Assembly (NCBI RefSeq): GCF_007754155.1
Contig: NZ_CP037423.1
Span: 8,242,938-8,306,937, forward strand
Direction of reading: 5' to 3'
Source of the DNA: Stieleria neptunia
GTDB lineage: Bacteria > Planctomycetota > Planctomycetia > Pirellulales > Pirellulaceae
DNA: 64,000 bases
Shown here piece after piece: positions 4,232 to 60,572 of the stretch. The notes beneath the pieces were generated by a model. The model saw only the letters and a list, made by a program, of their open reading frames with translations, made no database searches and was not told where the DNA came from. The stretch's first letter is position 1; each line of letters opens with the position of its first letter. A program made the position numbers and the translations under genes.

Positions 4232-4606
4232 AGGCCCGGAGGGCTGGCACAATGTTTGCCGGTCGCGTCAGCCACCGGAAGAGAATGACTTCGATCACGG
4301 AGGCCTGAAAGGCCGGCACATTCCGTCAACTGAACCGCGGGATTAACCAGAAGCGGGGATCTTGTGTCGGCCCGCTGGGCCTCACAGACTCCTCGAAACC
4401 ATTTCCGGTGGCTCACGCCCAATGCCATCTACTTTGACGCCAAGCGGGGTGTCTTTGTTAGCGGTAGGGCGCGAGCCCTCCGGTCTTTCACGGTGTTTTT
4501 GAAGCGCAACCGGACGGCTCGCGCCGTTCCGCTAACACCTCTAGTGCCAAAGTAGATGACATTGGGCTCACGCCACCGGCATCCAGTCTGTCGACCCTCC
4601 GGGTCT
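4232..4606. repeat. Family C palindromic repeat, split by a nested element
   Basis: The left part (AGGCCCGGAGGGCTGGCACA followed by a GCGTCAGCCACCGG block) and the right part (CCACCGGCATCCAG... CCCTCCGGGTCT, ending near 4606) are arms of the same imperfect inverted repeat found intact at 45576-45789. The centre, CCGGTGGC-TCAC-GCCACCGG, is interrupted by the element at 4420-4564. No gene is seen from 4130 to 5052. Confidence 0.7.
4420..4564. mobile_element. MITE-like element (family A), 145 bp, with TIRs and a 10 bp direct repeat
   Basis: Seen directly: 17 bp terminal inverted repeats (CAATGCCATCTACTTTG at the left; the right end reads the same on the other strand with one mismatch). Inside are two more palindromic blocks (GCGGTAGGGCGCGAGCCC and GACGGCTCGCGCCGTTCCGC). 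The 10-mer GGCTCACGCC is present at 4410-4419 and again at 4565-4574, as expected of a target site duplication. It carries no gene, so movement would depend on a transposase elsewhere. Confidence 0.7.
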
Positions 4607-12125: not shown

Positions 12126-12160
12126 TCGCCGCGGGGCGTTTGCGGGCTGGGGACCGTCGT

Positions 12161-12228
12161 AGCGGAACGGCGCGAGCCGTCCGGTTGCATCGAGAAAGAC
12201 CGGAGGGCTTGCGTCCTGCCGCTAAACA
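12161..12228. repeat. Family A palindromic repeat (partial copy)
   Basis: AGCGGAACGGCGCGAGCCGT and its inverted partner GGAGGGCTTGCGTCCTGCCG face each other across about 20 bp. It carries the core palindrome of the elements at 4420 and 25788 but not their outer ends. It lies between two convergent genes. Confidence 0.6.
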
Positions 12229-21958: not shown

Positions 21959-22013
21959 CAAGTGGCGTAAGCTTCCAGCTTGCGAAGAGACTATCAGGAA
22001 GCTTACCAGCTTG
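21959..22013. repeat. Family B repeat copy
   Basis: AAGTGGCGTAAGCTTCCAGC followed by TTGCG, with a degenerate inverted partner (GGAAGCTTACCAGCTTG). It lies just upstream of dapF. Confidence 0.6.
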
Positions 22014-22026
22014 TCGATTTGATCGG

Positions 22027-22126
22027 GATCTGCGGAGTCAATGGTGAGCCGCTGGCCGTAAGGCCTCGGGCGGGCGCCGGAATGCCCGGCCGTTTACGCG
22101 TCGCGGCTCACGAAATCGACAGCCCG
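22027..22126. repeat. Family E repeat, copy 1
   Basis: About 100 bp, matched in the same orientation at 23055-23153. Shared blocks: GATCTGC-GAGTCA, GGTGAGCCGCTGGCCGTAAG, GCCTCGGGC, TGCCCGGCCG, TACGCGTCGCGGC, AAATCGAC. The two copies bracket the TVP38 gene as direct repeats. Confidence 0.7.
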
Positions 22127-22147
22127 TGACGCCACACGCGGTGCGCG

Positions 22148-22205
22148 GGTCGGAGGCGGGAGCCTCCGTGGCATCGTGTTTCCAGGCGGAGCCCGGGAAC
22201 AAGGA
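22148..22205. repeat. Family D palindromic repeat, copy 1
   Basis: GGAGGCGGGAGCCTCC is followed by TTCCAGGCGGAGCCCGGGAA: two short hairpins in tandem. The same pair is found at 60481-60536. Confidence 0.65.
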
Positions 22206-22234
22206 AAAAGCACGCGGAGTCGCAAGCTGGAAGC

Positions 22235-22984: not shown

Positions 22985-23054
22985 GGAGATCTGCGTCGGG
23001 GAGATGGTGCTGGTTGTTCGCGGCAGGACGCGAGCAGGCTGTCGGTTTAGTCTG

Positions 23055-23153
23055 GATCTGCTGAGTCATCGGTGAGCCGCTGGCCGTAAGGCCTCGGGCA
23101 ACGTCGCAGTGCCCGGCCGCTCACGCGTCGCGGCGCACAAAATCGACTGCCCG
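23055..23153. repeat. Family E repeat, copy 2
   Basis: Direct-repeat partner of 22027-22126. Both start with GATCTGC or GATCTGCT and run to AAATCGAC-GCCCG. They are colinear with small differences in the middle (GGCGCCGGAA against AACGTCGCAG). Confidence 0.7.
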
Positions 23154-25474: not shown

Positions 25475-25758
25475 GGGGCGGGTCCGAAGAGAGGCGTTCG
25501 CGTGAGCTGCGATTATCTACCAGTCGATCCGTTTGCTCAATCCGACGCGATGGCTTGTGAAGTGAACGCCGGGATCCAGCGTTCGACCTCCCCTCGCTTC
25601 GCTCGACCCTCCTGCCAGGAGGGTGACTTTAAAAACTGCACGACCTCCTGGACGTCGAGCCAACGAGGCGGCGGGACGGGAAGGTCCGGTCACGTCGCCG
25701 ACACGTCGGTGGTACAATGATGTTCCCTCCCTCCTCCCCCACCTCGCAACGATCGCCC

Positions 25759-28700
25759 ATGAATCGACGATTCGCTACGCTGCTGGCTAACGCCGCGAAG
25801 CATTTTCCCCCTGTGTTTCTTGAGGTCTTAGCGGCAGGGCGCGAGCCCTCCGGTTCTTCATCTCTGCCACAACACCGGAGGGCTCGCGCCCTACCGCTAA
25901 AAAATGCTTCACAGCGTTGCCTGCTGGCCTGGTTGTGCTGCTGCGGCATGTCCGTTGCTCAAGAAAACGCGACCGATGGCGACATCGATTTTGCCAGCCA
26001 GGTCCGCCCGATCTTGTCCGATGCCTGTTTCGCCTGCCACGGGCCGGACGAAGAATCGCGCGAGGCGGATTTGCGTTTGGACGATCCCGATTCCGCCGGT
26101 GCCGTGATCGAACCGGGCGACGCGGCGGCCAGTGAGCTGTACGCCAGGTTGGTGGAAACCGATCCCGAGTTGAAAATGCCTCCGCCGGAATCGGGCAAGC
26201 AACTCGACGCGTCGCAGATCGACGTTTTGAAACGCTGGATCGATCAGGGCGCCGAATTCGAAAAACACTGGGCGTTTGTCGCGCCGACTCGGCCAGAAAT
26301 CCCCACGGTTCAGCAAGGCGATTGGGTCAAGAATCCGATCGACGCGTTTGTCGCGCGAAAACTGGAGTCCGAAGGCCTGTCGCCTGCGCCGGCCGCCGAC
26401 CACCGCACGCTCATCCGCCGGCTTTCGTTGGACTTGACGGGGCTGCCCCCGGAGCCGGACTTTGTCGCGACCTGGAATAAACGTCTTCAAGCGAACGGCG
26501 AAACGGCTTATCAGAATCTGGTCAGCCGACTGCTGCAGTCGAGTCATTATGGCGAGCATTGGGGGCGACTTTGGCTGGACGCGGCGCGCTACGCCGATTC
26601 CGACGGGTACGAAAAAGACAAACCCCGCCAAGCCTGGTTTTACCGTGACTGGGTCGTCGATTCGTTCAATGACGATCGCCCCTACGATGATTTTATCGTG
26701 CGTCAAATCGCCGGCGACCTGCTGCCCGATGCCACACAAGCCGATCATGTCGCCACCGGGTTCTTGCGGAATTCGATGGTCAATGAGGAAGGCGGTGCCG
26801 ACCCCGAGCAGTTTCGCATGGAAGCGATGTTCGACCGGATGGACGCGATCGGCAAATCCATCCTGGGGCTGACGATTCAATGTGCCCAGTGCCACACGCA
26901 CAAGTACGACCCGATCGAACATCACGAATACTATGGAATGTTCGCGTTCCTCAATAACACGCACGATGCGATCCTTCCCGTCTATACCGACGGTGAACTC
27001 GAACGCCGCCACCAAGTGCTGCGGCAGATCGAGGAACAGGAACGTTTGATCAAGCAAGCGCTGCCCGACTGGCGCGAACGGATGCACCGCTGGGCGAAAG
27101 AAGTGGCGTCACGTCACCAGCCGAACTGGACGACGACCGAGTTGTCGTTTTTAGACACCGCGTTGAGCGGATCGAAGTTCCAACCGCAAGGCGACGGATC
27201 GTATTTGTGCCAAAGCTATGCGCCGACAAATTTCAAGCCGCAGGGCACCGGCAGCTATCACGGCCAACGGTTGACGGGGATGCAATTGGAATTGTTGACG
27301 CACCCGAATTTGCCGCGGGGTGGACCGGGACGCAGTATCGACGGGACGTGGGCGCTGAGCGAGTTGGCGGCCGAAGTCGCGTTGTCGGGCACCCCCGAAC
27401 AATCGACTCGAATCCATTTCAGCCGCGCCGTCGCCGATCGCTCCCCGGCGGTCGCCGAGTTGAAACCGCGCTACGACAACAAGAAGAACCAGAAACGCAT
27501 CACCGGTGGCATCGACTTTGCCATCGACGGCGACGAGAAGACCGCCTGGACCAACGAGGTCGACACGCCACAAAGCAACGTCTCGCAAACCGCCTGGTTT
27601 GAATTCGATCAGCCGATCGACATCCCCGACGGGCAACACGCCATCGTCACCGTCCATCTGGCCCAACGACACGGCGGATGGAACAGTGACGACAACCAGA
27701 CGTTCAACATCGGACGCTTTCGCGTGTCACTGACCGGAGACACGATCCCCGAATTTGATCCGCTGCCCCAGGCGGTCGCCGCGTTGATCCAACAACCGGC
27801 CGACCAATGGACGCCCGCGGAGGAAGCGACGGTGTTTGCTCATTGGCGGACCACCGTGGCCGAAGCACAACCGCACAACGAAGCGATCGAGCAGGCATGG
27901 CAATCGCATCCCCGGGGAACCACGCAATTGGCCTTGTCGCGGCGCGACCGGCCGCGGACGACATCATTGTTGGCGCGGGGTGATTTCTTGAGCCCCGTTG
28001 AGGAAGTCCAACCGCACGTTCCGGCGTTTTTGCATCAGCTGAAAACCGACAACGCGCCGAGCGTCACCGAGCCGCAGCGATTGCAGTTCGCGCGGTGGCT
28101 GGCCTCGGACGACTCCCCGACCACGGCCCGATCGATCGTCAACCGAATTTGGCAAGCGTATTTCGGAATCGGCTTGGTCGAAACCAGCGACGACCTGGGG
28201 ACACAAAGTGCGCCGCCGTCGCATCCCGAGCTGATGGATTTTTTGGCGGTCGAACTGATCGAGAACGATTGGAGTTTAAAACACTTGCACCGCTTGATCG
28301 TCGGTTCGGCGACCTACCGCCAGTCATCCCATCTGACGCCCGAACTGGCCCGGCGCGATCCCTACAACCGACTGCTTGCGCGGGGAGCACGCTTTCGGGT
28401 CCCCGCCGAAACGGTGCGAGACATCACGTTGGCGGCCAGCGGATTGCTCAACCGCAGCCTGGGCGGACCGAGTGTTTACCCGCCGGCGCCGGAGTTCTTG
28501 TTCACGCCACCGGTCAGCTACGGCCCCAAGGTCTGGGAGGTCGCCCAAGACGACGGGCGTTACCGAAGGGCGTTGTACACGTTTCGGTTTCGCAGCGTCC
28601 CCTATCCGATGCTGGAAAACTTTGACGCCGTCCCCGGCAACCTATCCTGCGTCCGTCGCAGCACGTCCAATACGCCGATGCAAGCGCTCACGTCGCTGAA

Positions 28701-29049
28701 CGAACCGATGTTTCTGGAGTGTTCGATCGCGCTGGCGGCCAAGACGATTCGCGAAGGCGGTGCTGACGAAGATGCGGGTGCAGAAGCAACGGCCAGCGAC
28801 CGCCGACGCATCCGGTTCGCATTCCGACGTTGTGTCGGACGCCTACCGAGCGACGAAGAGCAACGTGTCTTGACCGACTACCTGGTGCGTCAACGCGAAC
28901 GGATGGATTCGAACGAACTGTCCGCGAAAACCATCCTGTCCTCGGGCCCGCTGCTGGATCTGGGCGACTTGGATGCGACAGAGTTGGCGGCCTGGTCGCT
29001 GGTTTGTCGCGTGATGCTGAACTTGGATGAAACGATCACACGAGAATAA
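25759..29049 (+). CDS. PSD1-type protein: cytochrome-like PSCyt1 + DUF1549 + DUF1553
   Basis: 1096 residues from the ATG at 25759; an upstream in-frame ATG at 25717 is less likely. Domains: PSCyt1 near ~75-170 with a CFACHG haem-binding motif; DUF1549 near ~185-400 (PIDAFVARKL, RRLSLDLTGLPP, DAARYADSDGYE, a second CAQCHTHKYDP); an intermediate region; DUF1553 near ~770-1080 (NRIWQAYFGIGLVET, HPELMDFLAVE, ATYRQSS). These large exported proteins are very numerous in planctomycetes and nearly always precede a DUF1501 gene, as here (6 bp gap). The signal peptide is interrupted by a palindromic element (25788-25920), which adds 47 codons including the target duplication. Confidence 0.93.
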   Translation: MNRRFATLLANAAKHFPPVFLEVLAAGREPSGSSSLPQHRRARALPLKNASQRCLLAWLCCCGMSVAQENATDGDIDFASQVRPILSDACFACHGPDEESREADLRLDDPDSAGAVIEPGDAAASELYARLVETDPELKMPPPESGKQLDASQIDVLKRWIDQGAEFEKHWAFVAPTRPEIPTVQQGDWVKNPIDAFVARKLESEGLSPAPAADHRTLIRRLSLDLTGLPPEPDFVATWNKRLQANGETAYQNLVSRLLQSSHYGEHWGRLWLDAARYADSDGYEKDKPRQAWFYRDWVVDSFNDDRPYDDFIVRQIAGDLLPDATQADHVATGFLRNSMVNEEGGADPEQFRMEAMFDRMDAIGKSILGLTIQCAQCHTHKYDPIEHHEYYGMFAFLNNTHDAILPVYTDGELERRHQVLRQIEEQERLIKQALPDWRERMHRWAKEVASRHQPNWTTTELSFLDTALSGSKFQPQGDGSYLCQSYAPTNFKPQGTGSYHGQRLTGMQLELLTHPNLPRGGPGRSIDGTWALSELAAEVALSGTPEQSTRIHFSRAVADRSPAVAELKPRYDNKKNQKRITGGIDFAIDGDEKTAWTNEVDTPQSNVSQTAWFEFDQPIDIPDGQHAIVTVHLAQRHGGWNSDDNQTFNIGRFRVSLTGDTIPEFDPLPQAVAALIQQPADQWTPAEEATVFAHWRTTVAEAQPHNEAIEQAWQSHPRGTTQLALSRRDRPRTTSLLARGDFLSPVEEVQPHVPAFLHQLKTDNAPSVTEPQRLQFARWLASDDSPTTARSIVNRIWQAYFGIGLVETSDDLGTQSAPPSHPELMDFLAVELIENDWSLKHLHRLIVGSATYRQSSHLTPELARRDPYNRLLARGARFRVPAETVRDITLAASGLLNRSLGGPSVYPPAPEFLFTPPVSYGPKVWEVAQDDGRYRRALYTFRFRSVPYPMLENFDAVPGNLSCVRRSTSNTPMQALTSLNEPMFLECSIALAAKTIREGGADEDAGAEATASDRRRIRFAFRRCVGRLPSDEEQRVLTDYLVRQRERMDSNELSAKTILSSGPLLDLGDLDATELAAWSLVCRVMLNLDETITRE
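25788..25920. mobile_element. Family A palindromic element inserted in a coding sequence
   Basis: 133 bp. The outer ends are inverted repeats (AACGCCGCGAAGCATTTT against its complement AAAATGCTTCACAGCGTT). Inner inverted arms are TTAGCGGCAGGGCGCGAGCC and GGCTCGCGCCCTACCGCTAA. The 8-mer CTGCTGGC flanks it at 25780-25787 and 25921-25928. Insertion plus duplication is 141 bp, a multiple of three, and the frame stays open through it. Confidence 0.8.
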
Positions 29050-32607: not shown

Positions 32608-32740
32608 AAGCCGTGCAGCATTTGTTAGCGGAAGGGCGCGAGCCCTCCGGTCGCGTTTCAAAAACACCGCGAAAGACCGGAGGGCTTGCGCCCTGCCGTT
32701 AAAACCTCGTAAAACACGAAAGCCAAATGCTTCACAACGC
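32608..32740. repeat. Family A element, intergenic copy
   Basis: It has the same outer ends as the copy at 25788: GTGCAGCATTTGTTAGCGG at the left, AAATGCTTCACAACGCTG at the right, with inner palindromic arms GGGCGCGAGCCCTCCGGT and ACCGGAGGGCTTGCGCCC. It lies about 70 bp upstream of the methyltransferase gene. Confidence 0.75.
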
Positions 32741-39123: not shown

Positions 39124-39253
39124 TCCTCCTATCGCCCGCCACATCTCTCCAATCGCTACTGGTCGCAGTGCCCCACGTCGACGAGTGAACGTCCGCGTGT
39201 GACTCAAGCCGGCGTGCCGCAGTGTGGCCGCCATGGTGATTCCAAAGGATTAG

Positions 39254-39950
39254 CCGCGAAAGAGCACAGAGGACGCAAAAGAAGAAGGCCCCCGCGCGTT
39301 CGCAGAGCGTCCTGCCATCACTCTTCCGCGCGGGAATTCAAACCAGTGCTCAAACACGACCTATTGCGTTCTTTGCGCTCTTTTGTGTCCCCAGCCGAAA
39401 TCCACTCGCACAAGCCGCGAACGACTCCCCGGAACCGTTGAGGCCGCGAAAGAGCGCAAAGAGCACAAAAGAAGAAGGCGCCGACCGTTCGTAGAGTGTG
39501 TCGTCGCCATTCTCCCCGGCACCAATTCGAGCCAGTTTTCACGCTCACTCTTTTGCGTTCTTTGCGCTCTTTTGTGGCTCCCCTAAATCCACACGCACAA
39601 GCCGCGGACGACTCCCCGGAACCGTTGAGGCCGCGAAAGAGCGCAAAGAGCACAAAAGAAGAAGGCGCCGACCGTTCGTAGAGCGTGTCGTCGCCATTCT
39701 CTCCCGCGCCAATTGGATCCAGTTTTCACGCTCACTCTTTTGCGTTCTTTGCGCGCTTTTGTGGCTCCCCTAAATCCACACGCTCAAGCCGCGGACGACT
39801 CTCCAGAACCGTTGAGGCCGCGAAAGAGCGCAAAAGAAGAAGGCGCTGACCGTTCGTAGGGCGTGCCGTCGCCATTTCTCCCCGCCGCCAATTCGATCCA
39901 GTTTTCACGCTCACCCTTTTGCGTTCTTTCGTGGCGTTCCTCCATACTGC
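39254..39950. repeat. Inverted-repeat tandem array 1 (four units, 187-190 bp)
   Basis: Units start at 39254, 39444, 39631 and 39818. Each opens with CCGCGAAAGAGC then CAAAAGAAGAAGGC, and later has the opposite arm TTTTGCGTTCTTTGCGCTCT then TTTGTG. The spacers share ACTCCCCGGAACCGTTGAGG. The last unit is shortened and ends before the GxxExxY gene. The long reading frames in the array are open only because the repeat has few stops. Confidence 0.9.
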
Positions 39951-39997
39951 CGTTTCAGCGTCGAGGAGATTCGATCCTTCTATTTCACAGAGAAATC

Positions 39998-40390
39998 ATG
40001 GCATTTGAGACCACCGATGAAATCATGCGGCTTTGCGACGTCGTCCGGCAAACTGGATTTGAACTCCGGAAATATCATGGCAGCGGGCACCTCGAAAAGA
40101 TCTATGAAAATGGCTTAGCGCATCGACTTCGAAAGCAAGGTTTCGCGGTTCAGCAGCAGGTACCAATCACAGTTTTCGATGAAGACGGTACGCCACTGGG
40201 TGACTACTTTGCAGATCTACTCATCGAGGGCGTTCTCATCGTGGAGCTCAAAGCATGCAAGACAACCACCGACGAACACATCGCGCAGATACTTGGTTAC
40301 CTGCGAGCCACACGAATCGAACACGGCCTGCTCATCAATTTCGGCGCGAAGAAATTTGAAGTCAAGAAGTATGTTCAATCAGATTGTTGA
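39998..40390 (+). CDS. GxxExxY protein (PD-(D/E)XK nuclease-like)
   Basis: 130 residues from the ATG at 39998, the normal family length; the frame is open further upstream only into repeat sequence. The naming motif is GHLEKIY (Gly30, Glu33, Tyr36). The PD-(D/E)XK-like core is visible: Asp73 in YFADLLIEG and Glu83-Leu-Lys85 in IVELKACK, then HIAQILGYLRAT and LLINFGAKKFEVKK. The biochemical role of this small family is not established. It lies between two arrays of inverted repeats, with array half-units touching it on both sides, and shares no operon with other genes. Confidence 0.9.
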   Translation: MAFETTDEIMRLCDVVRQTGFELRKYHGSGHLEKIYENGLAHRLRKQGFAVQQQVPITVFDEDGTPLGDYFADLLIEGVLIVELKACKTTTDEHIAQILGYLRATRIEHGLLINFGAKKFEVKKYVQSDC

Positions 40391-40419
40391 ACGAAGCAAA
40401 CCATGATCGAACGGAGGGC

Positions 40420-42271
40420 TACGAAAGATCGAAGCGAGCGCGAAGAAAACCACGTCGTTTTTCGATGCTCCTGACAACGTCAACCGGGTCACCATGAGCC
40501 GCTTGCGCTCGCTCGTGGTTCCCCCAAAGTCCTACGCAGAAACCGGGAAAGCCTGTTTGGACCGATTAGCCGCGAAAGAGCACAGAGAACGCAAAAGAAG
40601 AAGGCCAGCGCGTTCACGGAACGTCTTGCCACCACTCTTTCGCGCGTCAATTCGGTCCTGTGCTCACTCTCGACCTTTTGCGTTCTTTGCGCTCTTTTGT
40701 GGCCCCCTCAAATCCCCACGCACAAGCCGAGGGGCCCGTCCTCGCCTGGAACGATTAGCCGCGAAAGAGCACAGAGAACGCAAAAGAAGCAGGCCAGCGC
40801 GTTCACGGAACGTCTTGCCACCACTCTTCCGCGCGTCAATTCGGTCCTGTGCTCACTCTCGACCTTTTGCGTACTTTGCGCTCTTTTGTGGCCCCCTCAA
40901 ATCCCCACGCATGAGCCGAGGGAACCGGCCCTCGCTCGGAACGATTGGCCGCGAAAGAGCACAGAGAACGCAAAAGAAGAAGGCCAGCGCGTTCACGGAA
41001 CGTCTTGCCACCACTCTTTCGCGCGTCAATTCGGTCCTGTACTCACTCTCGACCTTCGGCGTTCTTTGCGCTCTTTTGTGGCCCCCTCAAATCCCCACGC
41101 ACGAGCCGAGGGAACCGGTCCTCGCTCGGACCGATTAGCCGCGAAAGAGCACAGAGAACGCAAAAGAAGAAGGCCAGCGCGTTCACGGAACGTCTTGCCA
41201 CCACTCTTTCGCGCGTCAATTCGGTCCTGTACTCACTCTCGACCTTTTGCGTACTTTGCGCTCTTTTGTGGCCCCCTCAAATCCCCACGCATGAGCCGAG
41301 GGAACCGGTCCTCGCTCGGAACGATTGGCCGCGAAAGAGCACAGAGAACGCAAAAGAAGAAGGCCCGCGCGTTCACGGAACGTCTTGCCACCACTCTTTC
41401 GCGCGTCAATTCGGTCCTGTGCTCACTCTCGACCTTTTGCGTTCTTTGCGCTCTTTCGTGGCTCTCTCAAATCCCCACGCATGAGCCGAGGGAACCGGTC
41501 CTCGCTCGGAACGATTGGCCGCGAAAGAGCACAGAGAACGCAAAAGAAGAAGGCCCGCGCGTTCATAGAACGTCTTGCCACCACTCTTCCGCGCGTCAAT
41601 TCGGTCCTGTACTCACTCTCGACCTTTTGCGTACTTTGCGCTCTTTTGTGGCCCCCTCAAATCCCCACGCATGAGCCGAGGGAACCGGTCCTCGCTCGGA
41701 ACGATTGGCCGCGAAAGAGCACAGAGAACGCAAAAGAAGAAGGCCAGCGCGTTCATAGAACGTCTTGCCACCACTCTTCCGCGCGTCAATTCGGTCCTGT
41801 GCTCACTCTCGACCTTTTGCGTTCTTTGCGCTCTTTCGTGGCTCTCTCAAATCCCCACGCACGAGCCGAGGGAACCGGTCCTCGCTCGGAACGATTGGCC
41901 GCGAAAGAGCACAGAGAACGCAAAAGAAGAAGGCCAGCGCGTTCATAGAACGTCTTGCCACCACTCTTCCGCGCGTCAATTCGGTCCTGTGCTCACTCTC
42001 GACCTTTTGCGTTCTTTGCGCTCTTTCGTGGCTCTCTCAAATCCCCACGCACGAGCCGAGGGAACCGGTCCTCGCTCGGAACGATTGGCCGCGAAAGAGC
42101 ACAGAGAACGCAAAAAAGAAGGCCCGCGCGTTCATGGAACGTCTTGCCACCACTGTTCCGCGCGCCAGTTCGGTCCTGTGCTCACGCGCGACCTTTTGCG
42201 TTCTTTGCGCTCTTTTGTGGCTCCCCTAAATCCACACGCACAAGCCGGGAAAGCCAGTCCTCAACAGGAAC
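40420..42271. repeat. Inverted-repeat tandem array 2 (nine 189-190 bp units plus a decayed one)
   Basis: Units start at 40563, 40752, 40942, 41132, 41322, 41512, 41702, 41892 and 42082. Each has arm A (CCGCGAAAGAGCACAGAGAA, then CGCAAAAGAAGAAGGC), a spacer, arm B (CCTTTTGCGTTCTTTGCGCT, then CTTTTGTGGC) inverted to arm A, and a second spacer (GAGCCGAGGGAACCGGTCCT). Units are almost identical, with a few alternating variants (AGGCCAGCGCG or AGGCCCGCGCG; TTTTGTGGCCCC or TTTCGTGGCTCT). A diverged unit spans ~40420-40562. No gene is in it. Confidence 0.95.
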
Positions 42272-42273
42272 GA

Positions 42274-42702
42274 TTAGTTGGTCGGCCACAGCGGCCGGCG
42301 TTGGTTCTCCGGCAGAATCACGCGGTTGACACGCTCGGGGTCTTCTTGACTCCACGTCTCGCGCATCGTCTTGGCGCGCACCTGGCGCGTGATCGATTTG
42401 TCTTGCCAGCGAATCAGGTACGTCGATGACTGGTCGACCTGACGTGGCAGTTGCGAGGGATGCTTGACCAACCGCCAGGCTCGGACTTCGAACTGACGGT
42501 TCTTTCGGGACCAGTCAAAGAAGACGACTTGGCGGAACACTTCGCGGCCATGGTCGTCCAGAAAGTGATTCAACTCGACCAGATCTACTTCCGCCACGGT
42601 CGTGTTGGAATCGCGGCCGCCCGGCAAAATCCCACTCGCCGAGAAGGTAGCCGCCGACAGCGACGCGGCGGTCCACGCCGCGATGTAGATCATCAAGTTC
42701 AT
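42274..42702 (-). CDS. Small membrane-anchored or secreted hypothetical protein
   Basis: 142 residues. It starts with a hydrophobic segment (MNLMIYIAAWTAASLSAATF) and continues as a folded-looking domain (VDLVELNHFLDDHGREVFRQ, VVFFDWSRKNRQFEVRAWR, TYLIRWQDKSITRQVRA). No family is recognised. It starts eight bases after the stop of the upstream lipoprotein gene, so both share a transcript. Its stop codon lies at the very end of the repeat array. Confidence 0.65.
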   Translation of the reverse strand: MNLMIYIAAWTAASLSAATFSASGILPGGRDSNTTVAEVDLVELNHFLDDHGREVFRQVVFFDWSRKNRQFEVRAWRLVKHPSQLPRQVDQSSTYLIRWQDKSITRQVRAKTMRETWSQEDPERVNRVILPENQRRPLWPTN

Positions 42703-59126: not shown

Positions 59127-59240
59127 AACGCGGTGAAGCATTTGTTAGCGGTAGGGCGCGAGCCCTCCGGTCTTTCACGGTGCTTTTGAAGCGCGACCGG
59201 ACGGCTCGCGCCGTTCCGCTAACACCTTCAGAGCCAAAGT
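59127..59240. repeat. Family A element, copy with mixed ends
   Basis: The left end AACGCGGTGAAGCATTTGTT is that of the copy at 25788; the right end (CCGCTAACACCTTCAGAGCC, then AAAGTA) is close to that of the copy at 4420. The core palindromes are the same in all. It lies six bases after a stop codon. Confidence 0.7.
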
Positions 59241-59293
59241 AAGTGGCGTCGGGCGCGAGCCGTCCGGTCTCGCCGCTCACGCCCTTCACGATC

Positions 59294-60106: not shown

Positions 60107-60282
60107 CCGTGCTTCGGCCATGGAGAAAATTTCGATCGGTGAGCCCCAAGCGTCAACGTGGCGCCCGGGCTGGATTGTACTGCATCCCCTGAACCATCGA
60201 TGCGCGAACTGTTTGATGGCAAAACACTTTTTGGGCAAAAGGTTTTTGTCGCCTGCAACTCGTTCTGTGTTGTACTCGGTTG

Positions 60283-60381
60283 TAGCGGCAGGGCGCGAGC
60301 CCTCCGGTCTTTCACGGTGATTTGAAGCTCGACCGGACGGCTCGCGCCGTTCCGCTAACACCTTTAGAGCCAAAGTAGATG
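60283..60381. repeat. Family A element, partial copy
   Basis: TAGCGGCAGGGCGCGAGCCC at the left and CCGGACGGCTCGCGCCGTTC at the right, then AACACCTTTAGAGCCAAAGT and AGATGGCAT. The left outer end is missing; the right end matches the copy at 4420. Confidence 0.7.
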
Positions 60382-60480
60382 GCATGGGGCTTGCGTCCTG
60401 TCGCTGAAAAATCGTTCACGGCGTAGGGCTCCGCCTGGGGACGCAAGGCCGGTGTGACCGCTCGCCACATGCGGTTCACC

Positions 60481-60572
60481 GGTAGGAGGCGAGAGCCTCC
60501 ATGGCAGTGTGTTCCCAGGCGGAGCCTGGGAACAAGAAAAACGCCGGAGGGCTCGCGCCCTGCCGCTAACAA
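60481..60572. repeat. Family D copy followed by half of a family A element
   Basis: GGAGGCGAGAGCCTCC and TTCCCAGGCGGAGCCTGGGA (60481-60536) repeat the pair at 22148. The stretch 60541-60572 (CCGGAGGGCTCGCGCCCTGC, then CGCTAAC) is the right half of a family A core. It ends 13 bp before the sucA stop. Confidence 0.65.

Follow-up and report, generated by a model that had tools for sequence, protein, structure and literature searches.

An in-frame MITE inside the signal peptide of a PSD1-family gene in Stieleria neptunia

Palindromic elements that lie in frame within genes are a known kind of sequence, of which the Rickettsia palindromic elements (RPE) are the standing example. RPE and their Wolbachia counterparts are about 100–150 bp long, and some of them sit in protein genes with the frame unbroken, according to excerpts of two papers (PMC10969869, PMC3767692). 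The Correia elements of Neisseria (NEMIS) are stem-loop MITEs, and in their 107-bp form open frames are joined to genes, as stated in part of a review (PMC2229807). Gene fusions with open frames are also found for the enterobacterial ERIC/RU-1 and the Yersinia YPAL/RU-2, which are MITEs as well. For planctomycetes, a search of the open-access literature by title found no report of an in-frame palindromic element.

Here we describe such a case from a 64,000-nucleotide stretch of the Stieleria neptunia genome (the window, to which all positions refer unless a locus is named). Like RPE, the Stieleria element is short and palindromic and lies in frame in genes, namely in the window and in five further accepted events. 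The likeness to RPE is one of description, and the host belongs to another phylum, is marine and has a large genome. The Stieleria family also differs in having a 9-bp target duplication with a CC..GG preference and in its placement. By a simple self-trained codon score, which misses cases, 83 of 120 copies have no coding signal on either flank and 33 have it on one flank only, and several of the in-frame copies lie in or adjoin signal peptides. The 155-bp form of NEMIS has stops in all frames, whereas the main Stieleria form has three open frames. In ERIC/RU-1 and YPAL/RU-2 the initial 30 residues of a putative protein come from the repeat, whereas the Stieleria element interrupts a signal peptide that was already there, and the site is empty in orthologues. 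REP sequences are palindromes of 20–40 bp that have a tagged end but lack inverted-repeat ends and a fixed target duplication. The Stieleria element, with its 132 bp, inverted ends and 9-bp duplication, is thus not a REP (GTAG/CGTC) with RAYT (definition partly from an excerpt of PMC3733652).

The insertion and its host gene

The original prediction placed a palindromic element at 25788–25920, flanked by an 8-bp duplication. The inverted ends and the membership of a repeat family stand, and CTGCTGGC is present on both sides (25780–25787 and 25921–25928). These 8 bp form the inner part of a duplication whose length is now 9 bp, as derived from 45 family copies. Because the family duplications are 9 bp, the right border of the element moves to 25919 (Table 1). 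The first base of the duplication is G on the left and C on the right, and C is also the base in five aligned orthologues. The flanks agree at at least 7 of 9 positions in 35 of the 45 own-genome copies, compared with 68 of 1980 cross-copy flank pairs that served as the control. The family duplications mostly start with CC and end with GG, giving an CCNNNNNGG-like target.

Table 1. Features of the insertion and the host gene, in window positions
Feature	Position	Strand	Basis or remark
PSD1/PSCyt2/PSCyt1 gene carrying the insert	25759..29049	+	1096 aa from ATG 25759; stop included
Original signal-peptide start MNRRFATLL	25759..25785	+	Sequence and orthologue alignment
Left target-site duplication GCTGCTGGC	25779..25787	+	8/9 identical to right copy
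132-bp MITE, stop-free in gene frame	25788..25919	+	Genome copies, duplication boundaries
Left terminal inverted repeat TAACGCCGCGAAGCATTTT	25788..25806	+	Sequence, end-pattern search
Internal hairpin, left arm	25828..25854	+	RNA folding
Internal hairpin, right arm	25874..25900	+	RNA folding
Right terminal inverted repeat (AAAATGCTTCACAGCGTTG on + strand)	25901..25919	-	Sequence, end-pattern search
Right target-site duplication CCTGCTGGC	25920..25928	+	Sequence, family duplication length
Rebuilt hydrophobic core and presumed cleavage region LLAWLCCCGMSVAQ	25921..25962	+	Sequence, hydropathy

The element lies behind codon 9 of the PSD1-family gene. Its 132 bp and the 9 bp of the duplication add up to 141 bp, or 47 codons without a stop, exactly as predicted. 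A search of 40 genomes for relatives of the protein gave matches at E 1e-250 or better in 22, the own genome included. An alignment of orthologous N-termini had been proposed as a check, and it bears out an insertion into a signal peptide. When the DNA upstream was aligned for the five closest orthologues (L035–L039; 83–91% identical, all from the same genus), the 47 codons proved absent in 5 of 5, with the same start codon. The element was also unseen in the translated N-termini of 16 more distant relatives (L040–L055). Two of the relatives with an empty site (G013 and G001) are more distant than the other three, and the window insert is known from one genome. It is a true insertion inside a signal peptide.

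The host gene runs from the ATG to a stop codon at 29047–29049, and its 3.3-kb frame, with the Pfam domains PSCyt1, PSCyt2 and PSD1, is intact. Omega is 0.117–0.143 against each of the five relatives, so the gene is under purifying selection. The changes found only in the host genome are 28 synonymous and 8 nonsynonymous, compared with 11/3, 17/5 and 19/2 in three relatives; the counts for the host span its whole branch, including the time before the insertion. The position of ATG 25759 is conserved in L035–L039. In L036 and L037 the reading frame closes 12 codons upstream of this shared ATG, which supports it as the start.

The original prediction also held that the duplication had rebuilt the hydrophobic core and that the insert had brought new basic residues in front of it. 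Both points are borne out. The rebuilt core, LLAWLCCCG, has a mean hydropathy of 2.19, within the range of 1.94–2.27 in the five orthologues. The basic stretch HRRARALPLKNASQR, from the last codons of the element, now lies ahead of this core, and the net charge there is +5 over 15 residues. Sec signal-peptide features of the lengthened leader were judged by two properties, charge and hydropathy. An n-region of 53 residues is unusually long.

As RNA, the element has a folding energy of −75.1 kcal mol−1 (z −9.8). A scan of the + strand of 25500–26100 returned no terminator-like site, and a plasmid collection gave no match at E 1e-5. An Rfam identity was rejected. All eight matches were below the gathering scores and six were to microRNA families, as expected of a long hairpin.

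A MITE family with open frames

The element belongs to a high-copy MITE family of the Stieleria genome. It has terminal inverted repeats (about 19 bp in the family) and a fixed 9-bp duplication, and it is short, free of a transposase and present in many copies. A 16-base pattern of its ends occurs at 215 places in the genome with at most one mismatch, compared with 2 for the reversed control. A first look at the host genome (10,975,817 bp) gave 487 candidates, out of which 40 copies were scored; the closest other copy matches at 95% over 132 bp. Close full-length copies were found in 3 of 39 other genomes, all of the same genus (best identity 96% in G005, 95% in G002 and 87% in G012). Of the remaining 36, four match weakly and in part, and 32 do not match.

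Two sets of copies were used. The own-genome set holds 45 unique copies from 48 BLAST rows, three having been dropped as duplicate or partial, and 35 of the 45 are 132 bp long. The wider set holds 120 distinct full-length copies in four genomes, obtained from 304 BLAST rows by keeping those of near-full length that had 300 bp of flank and differed in their flanks. In this set, 96 copies are exactly 132 bp.

Three of the six frames of the family consensus have no stop. Among the 45 own-genome copies, 3 have no open frame, 4 have one, 15 have two, 19 have three and 4 have four. Open frames alone are not unusual, since 259 of 2000 shuffled versions of the window element have three or more. The three open consensus frames end ...RRARALPLKNASQR, ...KTSRNTWEKCFTAL and ...KPQETHGKNASQR, so that basic residues lie near the end of each. 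Such endings can stand in for an n-region ahead of a hydrophobic core. In-frame entry is a property of the family, since 80% of the wider set (96/120) has the exact length and half of the consensus frames are open. The hairpin, too, belongs to the family consensus.

More relatives of the family, full or partial, lie in the window at 4441–4574, 12142–12191, 32608–32657, 59128–59261 and 60265–60397, and they share the hairpin half TAGCGG..GGCGCGAGCC.TCCGGT. The window also holds other repeats. About 13 copies of a unit of about 190 bp form two blocks of a tandem array at 39245–42275, and other dispersed GC-rich repeats, with two copies each in the window, lie at 22007–22223, 23035–23153 and 60463–60556.

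A parent transposon was sought at the 29 DDE_Tnp_1 (PF01609) loci of the genome, and no inverted pair of the element ends was found there at up to 4/19 mismatches; end matches at 5–6 mismatches occur, as chance would give. No inverted pair at the spacing of an insertion sequence was found among about 100 listed places of the 16-base end pattern (all zero-mismatch; 215 in total). Three ends with a different inner sequence were considered as the parent and led to related short elements instead. In Haloquadratum, a working transposase is no longer present in the genome for some MITEs, according to part of a published account (PMC3119063).

Two related structures were seen. One is a 324-bp element (L134:4737-5059) with the ends of the MITE family, a perfect 9-bp duplication and an unrelated interior. 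This interior also occurs elsewhere without the MITE ends, and the element is possibly a case of end-swapping between MITE families. The other is an insertion sequence (L231:1214-2816) that matches DDE_Tnp_1 weakly and has inverted ends, GAGGCTGTGAATTATT, similar to a portion of the MITE ends. By reading, it lies inside a copy of the hairpin repeat.

Other in-frame events in the genus

Sibling events were found by reading frames through the 120 copies, and five further in-frame events were accepted. In event B (L261 in the own genome; L314/L294; L315) the element lies in a signal peptide, between MMARFFSSTRS and the core. It is present in three species, free of stops and gaps, and the site is empty in G001, where the start is conserved. 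The protein has a weak TPR match only, below the curated cut-off. In event G (L253, L329), found in two species and empty in G005 and G007, the element is in frame just behind the leader of an FAD oxidoreductase (PF12831). The leader ahead of the element has an omega of 0.39 over 61 codons, which suits translation through the element. In event I (L238) the element follows a leader-like stretch of a protein with a TonB-receptor barrel match. Events J (L279) and K (L304) are internal, in a protein without a Pfam match and in an O-antigen-ligase-like protein (PF04932), respectively. I, J and K were accepted on a two-sided coding signal and the duplication (8, 9 and 9 of 9 positions).

Two more signal-peptide cases are probable. 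Case C (L165, L296, L322) occurs in three species and is empty in G001. In its G005 copy (L322), ACG replaces the upstream ATG and a TTG follows two codons on, with the frame through the element open. Case H (L295) is in a WD40 protein, with the element between MSKRTVSLDAPS and SRRWIL, a stretch that we take to be twin-arginine-like.

The original prediction had suggested that the element is tolerated, or selected, because it is stop-free. Tolerance is supported at the level of the family. There is no sign of selection for the inserted residues, as the element codons in three sibling events evolve near neutrality. Their omega is 0.93/1.53/0.88 in B, 0.81/0.90/0.37 in C and 1.86 in G, values that rest on 7–16 differences per pair; the rest of these genes has an omega of 0.08–0.26. 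As a descriptive observation, the elements in B, C and G have no stop and no gap between species while their codons drift.

Copies in genes are not always in frame. When the flanks of the 120 copies were joined, 29 frames that span the junction remained after filtering, and they came from 26 copies. Of these frames, 16 stay open and in frame with the element, 9 run into a stop within it and 4 are shifted by its length. By eye, most of the stopped or shifted frames were set aside as antisense shadows or as genes that start after the element; L167 and L239 look like real cut 3' gene ends. This filter missed case C (L165, L296), case H and one copy of B (L261), and the other copy of B passed. With at least 60 codons and a coding score required on both flanks, 11 rows were left, 5 with different phases and 6 with the same phase. 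Five of the latter are open (L279, L238, L253, L304, L246) and one has a stop (L289); L246 and L289 are probably shadows. Only 2 of the 120 copies (L279, L278) reached the threshold for coding on both flanks in one and the same frame. L278 was rejected as an in-frame event: there the element lies between a gene end and a lipoprotein-like frame, and it has no duplication. L265/L011 and L258 were set aside as doubtful on account of ambiguous start codons, and in L156, L163, L002, L003 and L005/L031 the gene probably starts after the element.

Four of the six accepted events, that of the window included, lie in the first 65 residues. A uniform model gives about 0.0007 for this, in a post hoc test on hand-picked events with approximate positions and lengths, and we take the N-terminal enrichment as a hint only.

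Reading of the insertion

In our reading, a non-autonomous DNA transposon (MITE) inserted with a 9-bp duplication at the border between n-region and core of a PSD1-family signal peptide. The gene would still be read from its old start, through the element, since the added length is a whole number of codons (132 + 9 bp) and the element was entered in one of the three frames that are open in the family. The duplication rebuilds the core, and the last codons of the element supply the basic HRRARALPLKNASQR ahead of it. The resulting signal peptide, with its 53-residue n-region, would probably still work, and the inserted residues would be a neutral passenger and not an adaptation. We give this reading a probability of about 0.75; most likely the element is tolerated as a passenger and restores a basic n-region. 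A point against it is the very stable mRNA hairpin, which could lower expression.

The insertion may instead have ruined export, leaving a protein that is made but cytoplasmic and a gene on its way to a pseudogene. In favour of this, the lengthened leader greatly exceeds those of the five orthologues compared, and the insert is missing from every orthologue whose N-terminus was read. The intact frame, the low omega with no nonsynonymous excess on the host branch and the retention of the parallel event B in three species argue against such a loss, and we consider it unlikely.

Translation from a start downstream of ATG 25759, in or after the element, would turn the element mostly into leader RNA. 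There is an in-frame GTG within it and a TTG or ATG just after it, and case C in G005 has an altered upstream ATG with a TTG nearby. Many REP repeats at predicted N-termini may be extragenic on this account, as noted in part of PMC3733652. Against this stand the conserved ATG, the loss of the basic n-region or of part of the core that a start after the element would entail, and events G, I, J and K, in which the element is behind coding sequence. A downstream start thus seems improbable.

There is even less to be said for the element being kept as an RNA hairpin that regulates the stability or processing of the transcript, with the coding effect incidental. The folding energy would suit such a role, and a Neisseria MITE transcript is processed by RNase III (part of the review PMC2229807). 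The hairpin is a feature of the family consensus, so the host gene is not singled out, and the scan for terminator-like sites was negative; we regard this role as very unlikely. An ancestral segment lost from the relatives by precise deletion would account for its presence in one genome only, but is hardly conceivable for a member of a mobile high-copy family with a duplicated target, empty in five relatives, two of which are more distant than the others.

Beyond the tolerated passenger in this one gene, the family as a whole might act as a portable signal-peptide n-region and linker. Genes, those for exported proteins above all, would then be a habitat to which the element is fitted, and leaders would have been lengthened repeatedly across Stieleria. 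The length of the element, the three open frames and the basic residues near all three of their ends would make entry at the border of n-region and core harmless. We offer this wider view as tentative and rather doubtful.

In-frame palindromic elements have been described for Rickettsia, Wolbachia, Neisseria and enterobacteria, and a large-genome marine planctomycete now joins them. The clean duplications, the empty sites and a signal-peptide insertion retained in frame by three species make the case open to direct tests. Two questions become testable: whether a 53-residue n-region still functions in export, and whether proteins gain peptide segments from mobile repeats through neutral tolerance. 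For annotation, the finding is a warning that transposon sequence makes up some of the long leaders in Stieleria proteins.
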